From Methylobacter tundripaludum (lineage in GTDB: Bacteria > Pseudomonadota > Gammaproteobacteria > Methylococcales > Methylomonadaceae), in contig NZ_PTIY01000002.1 in the NCBI RefSeq assembly GCF_002934365.1, positions 124,001-188,000 of the forward strand: a DNA stretch of 64,000 bases, read 5' to 3'. Shown here one piece after another: positions 19,506 to 23,762 of this stretch (position 1 is the stretch's first letter; every line of letters begins with the position of its first letter). A program made the translations under genes and the position numbers. The notes beneath the pieces were generated by a model. That model made no database searches and was not told where the DNA came from. It saw nothing but the letters and a program-made list of their open reading frames with translations.

Positions 19506-20999
19506 TTATCCTTTTGCTTGTTGGACAGGTTTTCTGGCTTTTTTCTTTTTGGATTTAGCGGTGCCTTTGGTTGCAGCCGCGCTATTGTCGTTCGCAGGCT
19601 CAATAACAACGGGTGCGGCATAAACCGGCGTGTGCGGCCCATAAGCCGGTTGCGACCAGTAAACCTGATTGCCTAGCAGACGCGTCACCACGACGGCGTG
19701 AGAGCCTTTGATGTCGATGGATTGCTTGCTGCCGCCGATGGCGATGTCATGCTTGCCGGAAGGCAATGTTGCGCGGGCAATGCTGATGGTTGCAGGCAAA
19801 GTGCGCCAAGTGCGTTCATCAGCGGATTCGGTAATGACATTGGCTATATTCAGCGCAATGCCGGCAATCGCCGCGCCGCCGCCTTGGTCCATCAAGGCTT
19901 TTTGGGACATTGCTTTTGCCGCGGCACGAAGAATGCCCCGAACGATAATTCCCGGCATATCGTCTCTTAATGCCCGTTTGGACATTGTATCCAGGCTGGT
20001 CACACCCGCTAATGGCAGGGTTTCTTTGCCGTCGATGCCGAGGGTGCTGGGTTGCGGAGTGCGGCTGGGGTCTGAATGCAGTACCGGAAACGATATGGGA
20101 ATAACGCCCAAATTGCTGACGATGACCGGCACGGGAATAGTGACTGAGCTAAGCGCGGGCGCGGTGCCGGATTCAACCACAAACAACACATCGGTTTCGG
20201 CAGGTTTACGGAGGCTAGTACGGGCTTCCAACGTCGCCAGGCCGTCTTCCAGAATTTTAATATTGGGCTGTAGCTCAATCGCCTGCCGGTAACCGGGCGC
20301 GGCGAGTCCCTGTTCGTTCAAGGCTTCATAGACAAAACCGGCCAAATAATGGCTGAAAGCGCTTTGGTAACCGTTTTTCAGTCGGGTGACTTCGGCCGAA
20401 TTAAGCGTTTCGACCGGATAACCGTTCAAATCCTTAAAGGTTGTGGCGATGCCTTTTTCCTTGCTTTCCTGTTCCAGAGCCTCGGCGTCTTTCGCGTTGA
20501 TTTCCGCGATAATGGCTTCGCGCTCGTGGGTTTTCTTGATCTCAATTCTGGCGGCATTCCAGTCGCCTGCCGATAAGTGATCCAGAGCCAGTCGGGTGGA
20601 CAGCATGACTTTTTCATAATCATGCCCGTCGTAGCGGCGGGTTTTGTCGTTTAGCACCACCGCGCCGACATTTTCCAAAATTGCGCCGGCCCTGATTTTG
20701 GCCTCATTTTCCCACTCATTGACTTTCCGGTCGGCCAACATCCACGCGCCTGCGCTGTCTTTATATTGGCTTTTCAAACGCAATAATTCGCCTTTTTCCA
20801 GATAGTAAAGCAAATCGAAGTCGCCGCCGGTGTTGTTGGCTTCATGTTGAGTTAAGGCTTGATCAAGCTGGCCTTGTCCGACCAGATCTATGGTTTGTTT
20901 GAGTTCGTTATCGTAACTGCGCATTGCGGAGCAGCCGGATAGCGTCAGCATCAATACAAAAGGCAGGGCAAGGCCTGGAGAAGAGGTAAAGAGGGGCAT
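19506..20999 (-). CDS. COG3014-type lipoprotein, first gene of the lpoB operon
   Basis: The 497-residue lipoprotein has lipobox LSGC (Cys23). The N-terminal half is helical with TPR-like spacing (DLLYYLEKGELLRLKSQYKDSAGAW and further helices to about residue 255). The C-terminal half is beta-rich, followed by a Lys-rich tail (KSKKKKARK). The same family occurs ahead of ycfL and lpoB in other gammaproteobacteria, which makes a role in wall synthesis plausible. No direct function is known to me. AAGGA precedes the ATG. Confidence 0.8.
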   Translation of the reverse strand: MPLFTSSPGLALPFVLMLTLSGCSAMRSYDNELKQTIDLVGQGQLDQALTQHEANNTGGDFDLLYYLEKGELLRLKSQYKDSAGAWMLADRKVNEWENEAKIRAGAILENVGAVVLNDKTRRYDGHDYEKVMLSTRLALDHLSAGDWNAARIEIKKTHEREAIIAEINAKDAEALEQESKEKGIATTFKDLNGYPVETLNSAEVTRLKNGYQSAFSHYLAGFVYEALNEQGLAAPGYRQAIELQPNIKILEDGLATLEARTSLRKPAETDVLFVVESGTAPALSSVTIPVPVIVSNLGVIPISFPVLHSDPSRTPQPSTLGIDGKETLPLAGVTSLDTMSKRALRDDMPGIIVRGILRAAAKAMSQKALMDQGGGAAIAGIALNIANVITESADERTWRTLPATISIARATLPSGKHDIAIGGSKQSIDIKGSHAVVVTRLLGNQVYWSQPAYGPHTPVYAAPVVIEPANDNSAAATKGTAKSKKKKARKPVQQAKG

Positions 21000-21733
21000 G
21001 AGGATTCCTTGTTTTATTATTATGGTGGTGTACGGTTTTTACCCGCTAGCTTCGGTGTCGTCCGTAACTAAGATGCCAACGCAGTAGAGGAAGTATAAAT
21101 GTTTTTTTTGATAACCCAATTTTTTTGAGCTGATGCACTTTACGGCATTACAGCGATAGCAATGTGTCGGGATTTGCGAATAACGGAGGACAATTGGAAT
21201 AAGTTTAAGTTATTTATCTGTTTTTTATTCTTCCAGACGATAGGTCGCACTCATTTTTTTGCCGCCCATCGTCGAGACCATATCTTTGTTTGCCGTAAAC
21301 CGGAATGTTCTTGTCAACTCATTTGTAAGCTTAGACCGACTATACAAATATAGTGAAATAGTGAACAATGAAAACCGGTCGTAAAGGGTGAATTTAGCAA
21401 ATAGGAGCGGTTGACCGCTAAATTACAGAAGCTCAGAACCACCTTAGTCTGTCCGTATTTTTTTCAAAAATGCACAATGCAAGACTTGAACCTGATGTTA
21501 TAGGGCAGGTTTCAGGATGAGATCGAAGCTATGTTCGGTCAATCTGCCAAAATTGCACCGCAGAAACGACTAAAAAATCAAAAAATAACTGAAAACAACC
21601 TATTGGCCTTTATCGCCTCTTTTCAGTTAAGAGCGATATCATATGTCAAAAAATCATGATAAATCTGACGCCTGGAACGCGTTGGTTTTAATCTTACAAC
21701 GGAATAAACAACTAAAATTATGGGGTGGAAATT
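21000..21733. other. AT-rich gene-free stretch with inverted repeats
   Basis: No supported gene is seen in these 734 bases. Small open frames (for example 21162-21353) have no family features. Two inverted repeats are visible. AGCGGT-TG-ACCGCT lies near 21407-21420. TAACTGAAAA pairs with TTTTCAGTTA at 21586-21629 across a 24-base loop. The base composition is lower in GC than the flanks and continues into the next two genes, so this may be the left end of an acquired island or its regulatory region. Confidence 0.5.
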
Positions 21734-22543
21734 ATGGGATGGACAAAATCTGTCAGTAAAGGCGCGAAGGGTGTTGGCAAATCAATAGACAAGGGTGCAA
21801 AAGATACCGGTAAAGCAGTCGTAGATACCGGAAAAGATGCTGGAAAAGCAATTGAAAAAGGTGCAACGGATACGATTGATACGGTCGTTGATACTACAAC
21901 TACCGTTATCAATGTCGCAACTGATACATACAATTACGCAGTCGATTTTGCTAATGATACGGCCGCTAGAACTGAAAGCATTGAAGCGACGGTATTGAAA
22001 AATACCGAAGAAATGGCAAAGGCTGGTATTGATACAACTTCAAAGGAGTTTAACGATTTATCAAAACAAGCTGAGCAACAAGTTATTGCTGGTGTTGAGG
22101 TTGTTAAAGATGCGGCAGTAGACGCTTATGCGTGGATTGATGAGAACGCTTGTAGAATTGGTCTAACGGCGTCGCTATCGATGGGTTTCGTCGCAGCATT
22201 TACGCCTGCGCAGCCAGAGGGGGCGGCGACATCAACTACGATGAGTTCATTATATGTAACTATGATTTCAACTGCTGGAAAATATGCAACTGCAATAGCA
22301 TTGGCGGAAGCGTCTACAGAATTAATTTATTTGATACCTGGTGTAAAGGGGCAAGTGAATCAAGACCTTTTATTTAATTGTGTTTCAAATTGTATTTACT
22401 ACTCATTAGATTCGGCCGCATTGTGGGGAACGCCTGCTGGAGTTGGGATCGCGATGGGGGCCGCAGTGTCGCCAATTGTAGCAACTTTAATATGCACTAG
22501 AACTTTACCTAACGGATTTTCCAAAGCACTGCCAAAGAGTTAA
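21734..22543 (+). CDS. Unrecognised protein with seven 11-residue amphipathic repeats
   Basis: The 269-residue protein starts at the ATG at 21734 after GGGGTGG, not at the GTG at 21725. I do not recognise the family. Residues 9-85 form seven 11-residue units (KGAKGVGKSID, KGAKDTGKAVV, DTGKDAGKAIE and so on). This is the pattern of LEA proteins and alpha-synuclein-like helices that fold on membranes. A mixed helical region follows. Two Gly/Ala-rich hydrophobic stretches (about 140-205 and 237-262) could enter membranes, and four Cys are clustered in the C-terminal part. No signal peptide is present. A putative 2OG-Fe(II) oxygenase starts one base after the stop. Codon use is AT-richer than the neighbours, which suggests transfer. 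Confidence 0.65.
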   Translation: MGWTKSVSKGAKGVGKSIDKGAKDTGKAVVDTGKDAGKAIEKGATDTIDTVVDTTTTVINVATDTYNYAVDFANDTAARTESIEATVLKNTEEMAKAGIDTTSKEFNDLSKQAEQQVIAGVEVVKDAAVDAYAWIDENACRIGLTASLSMGFVAAFTPAQPEGAATSTTMSSLYVTMISTAGKYATAIALAEASTELIYLIPGVKGQVNQDLLFNCVSNCIYYSLDSAALWGTPAGVGIAMGAAVSPIVATLICTRTLPNGFSKALPKS

Positions 22544-22544
22544 T

Positions 22545-23105
22545 ATGGAAAGCAAGGTGTTATACACATTAGAGTATTTAGTTGGACATTTGGACAATAT
22601 AGATAACCTAAAGTTAAAAGCTAACATATTGCGTAATTACGAAGGAAGAAACTTCATGGAAGATAGTCCAGAAGATATTCGTTATGAGGATATTAGACTG
22701 GACTTATTTCCAGAAGTTAAAAAGTTGATGCGCACTTTGATGGATAAGTTTGAGGAACAATATGGGTTGAAAATAAAACCCGTTCCAACATCAGACCCGA
22801 ATGAAGTTGTTTGGGCGGTTGTGCATCAACACAATGAAAGCACCAATTGGCACGATCACGCCACCCATACTAATTACAATAAGGGAGCTAAGGTAAGTGC
22901 GGTATATTATGTAGATGTTCCACATAATAGTGGGGATATAGTATTTAAAGTTTATGAGAATCCATTTGTAACTAAAATGTATTTGGAGAAAGCGGAAACG
23001 GGTAAGTTCATAATGTTTGATAGCACATTGTTACATTGCGTAACTAAAAATTTAAGCAATTATAATAGAATTATTATTAGCATGAATTTTACATTTGATG
23101 ACTAA
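22545..23105 (+). CDS. Putative 2-oxoglutarate/Fe(II)-dependent oxygenase
   Basis: The 186-residue protein has the jelly-roll features of the small 2OG-Fe(II) oxygenases of the PF13759 type. It has a His-rich metal motif NWHDHATH (H103, D104, H105, H108), the strand KVSAVYYVDVPHNSGDIVF, a distal His164 in FDSTLLHCV and Arg175 in NRIIISMNF for 2-oxoglutarate. About 75 N-terminal residues are helical and acidic. Such enzymes hydroxylate amino acid side chains or small molecules. The gene begins one base after the repeat-protein stop, so that protein is a possible substrate. This is inference. The sequence is markedly AT-rich. Confidence 0.7.
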   Translation: MESKVLYTLEYLVGHLDNIDNLKLKANILRNYEGRNFMEDSPEDIRYEDIRLDLFPEVKKLMRTLMDKFEEQYGLKIKPVPTSDPNEVVWAVVHQHNESTNWHDHATHTNYNKGAKVSAVYYVDVPHNSGDIVFKVYENPFVTKMYLEKAETGKFIMFDSTLLHCVTKNLSNYNRIIISMNFTFDD

Positions 23106-23261
23106 TCAAGGTTCTTCGGAGTCAGGGGCAATTTAGTAATTAAGCGGATATAATGGATTCGTAATGTTTTCGGCAATGCGATTAAGAAACGGTGATTGGA
23201 CTGCATAATTTCTTAACTGGGTGTGAAAATATATTTTCCCTGAAGAATTGGTTTCGTCAGT

Positions 23262-23762
23262 CTATTCGAGGGTTTTGTTTTTAATGCGGGTTCCCATTAG
23301 GTAATCGAACCAAGGCCAGGTAACGCACCAGTTACCGGGGGAATTGCCGCCGAGATGATGGTCGCAATGCCAGCGCAAATGCCGTTTAGCCCAAGCCGGG
23401 TCAAGGTGGGCCTTACGATGTTTATAGTAATAAAACATCAAGGAAGCATATAGTGTACCGGCAAATAGCGGGAACATGATCAACAGTGGCGCATGCAGCA
23501 GTACAATGCTTATCAACACCGCCAATTCCTTGGTTTGAGGATTCCATGTTGTTAAATTCATGGACTGATAGCCCGGGTCGAGCATGGCGTTTTGGGTGCA
23601 AGCGGCGTGATGTTCATACCAGTGGTAAGCCCAGAAACTATGCCGATTTCGTCCCAGCCCATGCAGAATGTATTTATGCATCAGCCATTCGCCCGCATTG
23701 GCGCCCGCATTGGCATAGGCCAAGCCTAAAATGAATTGGACAGCTACGCTAAGCATGGGCAA
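23262..23762 (-). CDS. Fatty acid hydroxylase/sterol desaturase-superfamily protein
   Basis: The 166-residue membrane protein has His clusters of the integral-membrane di-iron hydroxylases: HKYILH, HWYEHH, HRKAH and HCDHH. Two hydrophobic stretches lie near residues 5-25 and 83-110. It is shorter than typical sterol desaturases, so it is a compact member of the superfamily. The substrate cannot be read from sequence; a lipid or carotenoid-type molecule is likely from the family. It is transcribed alone and ends facing the accessory island. Confidence 0.75.
   Translation of the reverse strand: MPMLSVAVQFILGLAYANAGANAGEWLMHKYILHGLGRNRHSFWAYHWYEHHAACTQNAMLDPGYQSMNLTTWNPQTKELAVLISIVLLHAPLLIMFPLFAGTLYASLMFYYYKHRKAHLDPAWAKRHLRWHCDHHLGGNSPGNWCVTWPWFDYLMGTRIKNKTLE

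Follow-up and report, generated by a model that had tools for sequence, protein, structure and literature searches.

The adjacent genes A and B lie in a strain-specific insert of a bacterial chromosome, and the same pair, joined in the same way, is found on a viral contig. That both genes were captured by the bacterium as one phage-derived unit is well supported, and the transfer would have run from phage to bacterium. Beyond this, we tentatively propose, at rather less than an even chance for the reading as a whole, that A acts in lysis or at the envelope, that B hydroxylates A or a protein recruited by A, and that the unit has been domesticated in a methanotroph.

The window, i.e., the whole stretch of 64,000 bases that was analyzed, spans positions 124001-188000 of contig C2 in a genome of 4.18 Mb (45 contigs, 99.92% completeness). 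As a profile search of this genome detected two loci above the cut-off for PF02461 (methane/ammonia monooxygenase subunit), the source bacterium is most likely a methanotroph. The features discussed below are listed in Table 1.

Table 1. Positions in the window of genes A and B, of their sequence features, and of the insert with its bounding genes
Feature	Position	Strand	Basis
Gene A, 269 aa	21734..22543	+	ORF; ATG 21734, stop TAA 22541-22543
A N-terminal module, residues 1-72, undecad amphipathic helix (predicted)	21734..21949	+	moment peak, lag-11 identity
A C-terminal domain, about residues 131-269, family-defining core	22124..22543	+	28-row alignment
A hydrophobic stretch 1, residues 139-157	22148..22204	+	Kyte-Doolittle
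A hydrophobic stretch 2, residues 236-254	22439..22495	+	Kyte-Doolittle
Stop-start junction TAATATG	22541..22547	+	identical in phage copy
Gene B, 186 aa, PF13759 / phrog_81 2OG-Fe(II) oxygenase-like	22545..23105	+	ORF from ATG 22545; profiles
B HxH motif, H103-D104-H105	22851..22859	+	H103, H105 in 39/39 rows
B distal His, H164	23034..23036	+	39/39 rows
B Arg, R175	23067..23069	+	39/39 rows
Strain-specific insert	21110..23259, ends approximate	.	comparison with same-genus genomes
Lipoprotein-like gene, bounds insert	19506-20999	-	comparison with same-genus genomes
Fatty-acid-hydroxylase-like gene, bounds insert	23262-23762	-	comparison with same-genus genomes

A strain-specific insert at a variable site

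An earlier note on this DNA had described A and B as a two-gene island, and this description held: both genes lie in an insert of about 2.15 kb, and only one of the 237 genomes of the family, the source genome itself, contains A or B. No gene besides these two was recognized inside the insert. In the same-genus genome G048, the flanks matched on both sides, with about 56 bases between them versus about 2,150 in the window. We compared 16 regions from same-genus genomes, six of which bridge the lipoprotein-like gene to the right-hand genes; in the other ten, the lipoprotein-like gene was absent from the stretch compared, due to contig ends or other arrangements. The bridging regions carry about 56 bases (L043), 489 bases (L046), 2,290 bases with an HTH/Gp49 pair plus another antitoxin-like gene (L047), 6,094 bases with genes for a TacA-type antitoxin and a GNAT protein plus a calcineurin-like cassette (L051), and 160 and 116 bases (L190 and L191, both of which also lack the fatty-acid-hydroxylase gene). 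As the cargo differs among these six regions, the insertion site is a variable spot.

The cassette in L051 (L051:2737-7661), which adjoins the antitoxin and GNAT genes, looks like a defence-type cassette. It comprises one gene for a calcineurin-like phosphoesterase, which also matches a phosphoribosyltransferase weakly, and two genes that have no Pfam match. PADLOC gave partial matches for the calcineurin-like protein only.

The same-site cargo of L047 and L051, together with these partial PADLOC matches, would fit the idea that A and B are a bacterial defence or toxin-antitoxin-like pair, with A as a membrane-damaging effector and B as its regulator. We nevertheless consider such a pair unlikely, as PADLOC had no match for B of the window and found only weak ZorA stretches in A (1.1e-4 and 0.013), and as the other members of the A family are phage genes, several of them near endolysin or tail genes. 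Moreover, bacteria offer no A without B by which a dependence of the two could be gauged.

With respect to composition, the earlier note had regarded both genes as AT-richer than all their neighbors, which is true for B by GC and for A by GC3 but not for A by GC. Among the 48 ORFs of at least 150 aa in the window (window mean GC 0.489), B has the lowest GC (0.339) and A the fourth lowest (0.430, computed on the ORF as listed from an in-frame GTG at 21725, ahead of the ATG of A), and A and B have the two lowest GC3 values. No long repeats that could mark the ends of a mobile element bound the insert, and RNA families gave no match at E up to 1 in 20900-23500. The promoter scan yielded 5 promoter-like sites versus 6.7 expected and was uninformative, and 4 terminator-like sites were found versus 1.6 expected.

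Two further observations concern the DNA itself. A near-perfect tandem duplication of 14 bases (AAATTATGGGRTGG) is located at the start codon of A (21715-21742) and was not seen in the compared stretch of the phage copy. Outside the insert, a short stretch at about 24335-24373 matches many places in same-genus genomes and is probably a dispersed repeat.

The gene pair on a viral contig

Scans of a viral-contig collection with A and with B, which were run separately, reached the same contig, IMGVR_UViG_3300032236_002285. This contig has 476,236 bases, a terminase match, and phage-type neighbors, and its A and B genes are also one base apart. The phage copy shares 63% identity with the window in A (67% over aligned columns) and 78% in B, and the junction TAATATGGAA is identical in both. 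The spacing of one base that had been noted before was thus exact (the stop of A ends at 22543, and the ATG of B begins at 22545), and the expected adjacency in unrelated genomes was borne out in part: it is kept on this viral contig and, among the matches listed, on this contig only.

The DNA similarity detected by blastn starts at the ATG of A and ends at the stop of B. It falls into two main pieces on either side of an unaligned middle (22168-22382), other pieces being weak, and no significant piece was found in the flanks. Between window and phage, the differences at the three codon positions are 0.27/0.19/0.54 for A and 0.22/0.10/0.51 for B, with dN values of 0.27 (A) and 0.17 (B) and a dS that is 1.7 in A and past saturation in B. 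As third positions differ most, both A and B have been kept as coding genes. The stop-start junction TAATATG suggests that A and B are translationally coupled, and B would probably be produced from the same message as A by re-initiation at this site.

Gene A and its family on viral contigs

In A of the window, seven successive 11-residue units can be written, of which the last two are weak by eye. Identity autocorrelation reaches 0.31 at lag 11, 0.33 at lag 22, and 0.27 at both lag 7 and lag 18, and the maximum of the hydrophobic moment lies at 98 degrees, which corresponds to 3 turns in 11 residues; neither the lag-11 value nor the moment was reached in any of 2000 shuffles. The repeats are therefore amphipathic, as the earlier note had proposed from the letters, and predicted-helical, and the two hydrophobic stretches that it had listed coincide with two Kyte-Doolittle peaks above 1.3. 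On the basis of these sequence properties, A may bind membranes. The predicted structure of A was poor (pLDDT 50.9).

Up to an E of 1, neither Pfam nor NCBIfam assigned A to a family, the PHROG match of the window copy was weak (phrog_3824, 7.6e-4), and no match was found in 50,697 phage records or among plasmids. PADLOC matches to ZorA and PbeC and PHROG tape-measure matches were set aside, as they were weak and confined to helical stretches.

A family of related proteins was collected by scanning viral contigs, for which both alignments and a DNA pattern encoding TPAGVGIA were used. The C-terminal domain of A is present in at least 114 viral-contig stretches, some of which overlap on one contig, and in at least 67 distinct proteins on viral contigs, at least 56 of them with 190 aa or more, the assignment of contigs as viral being computational. 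Of the loci L197-L315 from the DNA-pattern scan, 96 of 119 carry the domain among the matches listed, and several A-bearing contigs exceed 100 kb. Two short-pattern scans of a genome collection of 84,980 species gave no confirmed A, with pattern seeds that would miss much of the family branch with a Cys-rich N-terminus. Matches in the bacterial genome G303 (E 4.3e-4, 55 profile positions) and in the genomes G747, G338, and G977 (47, 67, and 54 positions) were rejected as chance matches due to their short partial coverage.

An alignment of 28 family members, which are 227-345 aa long, has 28 invariant columns, 25 of which correspond to residues 131-261. The conserved core reads AYxWxDxNxC ... 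NxxSN ... AGVxIA ... C ... PxG, with W134, C140, P158, and C254 among the invariant positions. The window copy has this C-terminal domain with its invariant residues, and its identity to the other rows is 39-67%.

The N-termini vary. K/T/D 11-mers are found in the window, L005, L213, L199, and L210, E/A/R 11-mers in L006, and NDNVIQPI-type repeats in L018, L232, and their kin, while a short Cys-rich segment is present in 35 of 56 proteins among the matches listed. These classes derive from simple text patterns, of which the 'KT11' class (15) mixes the K/T/D 11-mers with the NDNVI type, and the two were separated by eye. Six N-termini, which represent two or more dissimilar types of sequence, share the undecad periodicity (window, L005, L006, L213, L199, and L210). 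All six have a moment angle of 97-99 degrees that none of 2000 shuffles reached, and their lag-11 identity was reached by no shuffle in the first five and by 3 of 2000 in L210. In L018, L232, and L195, the N-termini are amphipathic with an angle of 93-96 degrees (0/2000 shuffles), and they have a lag-11 identity that is not significant (229, 726, and 1317 of 2000 shuffles). The Cys-rich N-terminus of L205 is not amphipathic (367/2000; lag 11, 65/2000).

Among the 28 members searched, seven matched phrog_12278 ('tail fiber protein/lysozyme') with a best E of 3.2e-6, the match in L219 covering residues 40-147 at 4.6e-4, and single members matched tape-measure-type PHROG families. The best PDB profile match of the family (E 0.016) was to influenza HA2; this and further HA2 matches were taken as chance coiled-coil matches. 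Three divergent members had no match in the 50,697 phage records. Pfam, PHROGs, the PDB, and these phage records thus offer no clear match for the A family of phage proteins.

The variability of the N-terminus also bears on the idea, partly raised by the earlier note, that A is a stress-protective LEA-like protein accompanied by a modifying enzyme. The 11-mer periodicity resembles the one in group 3 LEA proteins. However, A has no Pfam match at E up to 1, and Pfam gave only a weak DUF2884 match in one of the 28 family members. Furthermore, the repeat is the variable part and the hydrophobic C-terminal domain the conserved part, and the phage neighbors of A include late genes. In view of the missing profile match and the varying repeat, we rejected A as a LEA or stress protein, a reading that is highly improbable.

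In the phylogenetic tree of A, the window copy groups on a long branch with L213, L199, and L210 (95/94) and not with its phage partner L005, which allows a mosaic history. In the 28-row alignment, 16 residues are unique to the two B-paired A proteins, and 14 of these, including K5, K12, and K23, lie in the N-terminal repeats. As the unique residues concentrate there, a modification would best be sought in the repeats first.

Gene B and its metal motif

The assignment of B as a 2OG-type oxygenase could be substantiated. B scored 33.7 bits against PF13759 (cut-off 27; 29.5 bits in the genome search) and matched phrog_81 at E 4.8e-20 over residues 41-186; TIGR02466 was matched with 39.8 bits, below the cut-off of 62.5 bits. 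The structure model of B (pLDDT 90.7, pTM 0.88) has strands from residue 89 on that form a double-stranded beta-helix fold, and its Foldseek matches include 2OG oxygenases, prolyl hydroxylases among them. The best PDB matches were 3bvc and 2rg4 (uncharacterised), proline hydroxylase H11, SyrB2, 3dkq (a putative oxygenase), and PHD2.

The metal motif was more complicated than the earlier note had suggested. The 39 rows that we aligned consist of B of the window, the B of its phage partner, and 37 relatives that were selected among the best matches of a pattern search that did not require the metal motif. H103, H105, H164, and R175 are invariant in all 39, so that the His-rich motif, the distal His, and the Arg following it stand. 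R175 is presumably the 2-oxoglutarate ligand. The second ligand position is occupied by His and not by Asp or Glu, and all 39 rows therefore have HxH...H in place of the canonical HxD/E...H facial triad. The usual triad of 2OG oxygenases has Asp or Glu at this position (PMC13168262, in excerpt), and the exchange suggests an unusual iron site, with either three or two His, in this branch of B-type phage oxygenases.

By eye, B has a longer loop after HxH that resembles those of L082, L083, L092, and L059. In the tree of B, the window copy and the B of the phage partner are sisters at 100/100. The phage partner of B also matched the CRISPR-associated '2OG' model of PADLOC at 9.1e-7.

Oxygenases in the neighborhood of A

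B adjoins A on only one viral contig among the matches listed, and A is absent from all of the 120 stretches with the B pattern, of which 112 gave a B-profile hit (among the matches listed). Searches for four kinds of oxygenases gave matches at a distance of up to 6.5 kb from A in 7 of 52 groups, whereas a second such oxygenase accompanies the central one in 27 of 112 control loci, again among the matches listed. A therefore has no special attraction to oxygenases, and a general link between A and oxygenases was not found. This slightly lowered the probability of a functionally coupled pair and slightly raised that of the rival view that A and B are two phage morons carried together, i.e., that A is linked to lysis or the virion, that B acts on a host protein, a surface sugar, or a small molecule, and that the two are adjacent due to a single transfer from a large phage, without being functionally coupled.

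The oxygenases near A include PhyH- and PF13640-type proteins. The L006 group, L232, and L284 have a phrog_61 / PF13640 oxygenase gene two genes downstream of A; the close relative L019 has none at this position. In L215, a PF13640-type gene eight ORFs from A had been missed by the four oxygenase queries. As a side aspect, L205 has a PhyH-type gene (phytanoyl-CoA dioxygenase; L205:309-1088) on the opposite strand, four ORFs from its A-family gene. The 269 kb viral contig of L018 (G636) has five phrog_81 matches, at about 41-45 kb and at 209 kb; four form one cluster with further oxygenase-like ORFs recognized by eye, and the fifth is nearest to the A-family gene, about 25 kb off.

The distance between A and phrog_81 genes on this 269 kb contig is in line with the two-moron view, as is the abundance of such oxygenases in cyanophages, with ten in one genome (PMC9964418, in excerpt). 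What argues against two genes without functional coupling is that the gap of one base and the identical junction were retained despite divergence to 63-78% identity, and that the DNA similarity begins with the start of A and ends with the stop of B. Altogether, we regard two such morons as a real possibility, at somewhat less than an even chance.

Lysis genes in the neighborhood of A

Several phage A genes have endolysin-like neighbors. These are of the GH19 type in L006/L207, L018/L196, L195, L213, and L232 and of the phrog_7 lysozyme type in L212 and, by similarity, in L304 and L307. A third kind occurs in L198 and L220, whose proteins are called endolysins by PHROGs and are presumably CHAP-like. 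The PHROG annotation 'endolysin' was assigned to neighbors of all three kinds, and the neighbor in L213 also matched GH19 of Pfam.

Within 6.5 kb of A, 14 of 52 groups have an endolysin-like gene, 16 a holin-like gene (three queries, one with a PHROG holin match and the others judged by eye), and 25 either of them, while the controls, 112 loci centred on B-type oxygenases, gave 1 endolysin-like and 0 holin-like matches, all counts being among the matches listed; as the queries were drawn from A neighborhoods and the controls represent other phage lineages, this contrast is biased and shows that there is a link but not how strong it is. The mean flank was 7.7 kb for A and 6.6 kb for the controls, and with flanks of at least 6 kb, an endolysin- or holin-like neighbor was found in 21 of 39 A groups versus 0 of 62 controls among the matches listed, with the same bias. 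No such neighbor was detected in 27 of the 52 groups among the matches listed, the B-bearing 476 kb contig included. In L243, a tail-sheath gene is among the neighbors of A.

Secreted-looking proteins with long low-complexity stretches of Ala/Ser/Thr and Lys/Ser/Glu were also seen near A (L006:5634-7160 and L195:11213-12706). Such proteins recur in 8 of 35 representatives, and the protein of L006 had no PHROG or Pfam match.

A possible function of the A-B unit

Based on these data, which add a phage origin, a large A family whose N-termini are exchangeable, neighboring lysis genes, and the HxH motif to what the earlier note had seen, we suggest the following scheme for a lysis- or envelope-acting A with B as its modifying enzyme. 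The methanotroph would have acquired A and B horizontally from a phage as an accessory unit. A would combine the conserved hydrophobic C-terminal domain with an exchangeable N-terminal module, in this case an undecad amphipathic helix of the membrane-lying type. The helix would bind the membrane, and the C-terminal domain would insert into it. Because the phage A genes appear to belong to the late genes, often near an endolysin- or holin-like gene, A most likely acts at the host envelope, either in lysis or in the control of lysis or superinfection. That B acts on A, as the earlier note had suggested, is possible for this pair but a guess: B would most likely hydroxylate A or a protein recruited by A and could thereby tune the membrane activity of A to oxygen and 2-oxoglutarate. 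We can also only guess at the benefit for the bacterial host, which may use a domesticated phage function, for example, to interfere with phages that share the lysis or envelope machinery. Several observations speak against this scheme: most A genes occur without B, the window copy does not group with L005 in the tree of A, seven of the 28 family members match phrog_12278, and the structure prediction for A is too poor to show a fold or a membrane topology.

In a bolder version, the A family would form a new class of phage proteins for envelope lysis, in which the N-terminus is a plug-in module that targets the membrane. Hydroxylation of the undecad repeats would then switch the lysis or membrane activity of the A-B unit, an oxygen-sensing lysis control that was taken over by the oxygen-dependent methanotroph. 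We regard this version as very unlikely.

Irrespective of the mechanism, A opens a phage protein family that has no clear match in Pfam, PHROGs, and the PDB (family members) or in NCBIfam (window copy) and that nonetheless recurs on many viral contigs. Its modular build and late-gene setting make a role in lysis or at the envelope directly testable, and for a 2OG oxygenase of the phage type, A is a concrete candidate as the substrate. The pair is also an example of a phage gene unit that has settled in a bacterial chromosome.

Comparison with known systems

Titles and the beginnings of abstracts, among the matches listed, mentioned neither the A-B pair nor the A family. With its PF13759 (2OG-FeII_Oxy_5) / phrog_81 kin, B shares W90, HxH, YY, H164, and R175 in all 38 other rows of the alignment; it differs from this family by its longer loop after HxH, by its position one base after gene A, and by a TIGR02466 score below the cut-off. 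PHD2, H11, 3bvc, and 2rg4 were matched by the B model with a Foldseek probability of 1.00 and TM values of about 0.56-0.71 by query length among the matches listed, but their sequence identity to B is about 10-16% in these matches, and B has HxH where the usual triad has Asp/Glu.

Undecad amphipathic helices are known from group 3 LEA proteins, alpha-synuclein, perilipin, and apolipoproteins. A shares with them the 11-residue periodicity and the 98-degree moment. Unlike the LEA- or apolipoprotein-like 11-mer families, A has no curated profile match, and its repeat is one of several exchangeable N-termini that precede a hydrophobic domain. With phage holins and their relatives, A has in common the hydrophobic stretches and a gene position that is often near endolysin- or holin-like genes. 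It differs from holins in that the A family is 227-345 aa in length, has long N-terminal modules, and matched no holin family when its 28 members were searched against PHROGs.
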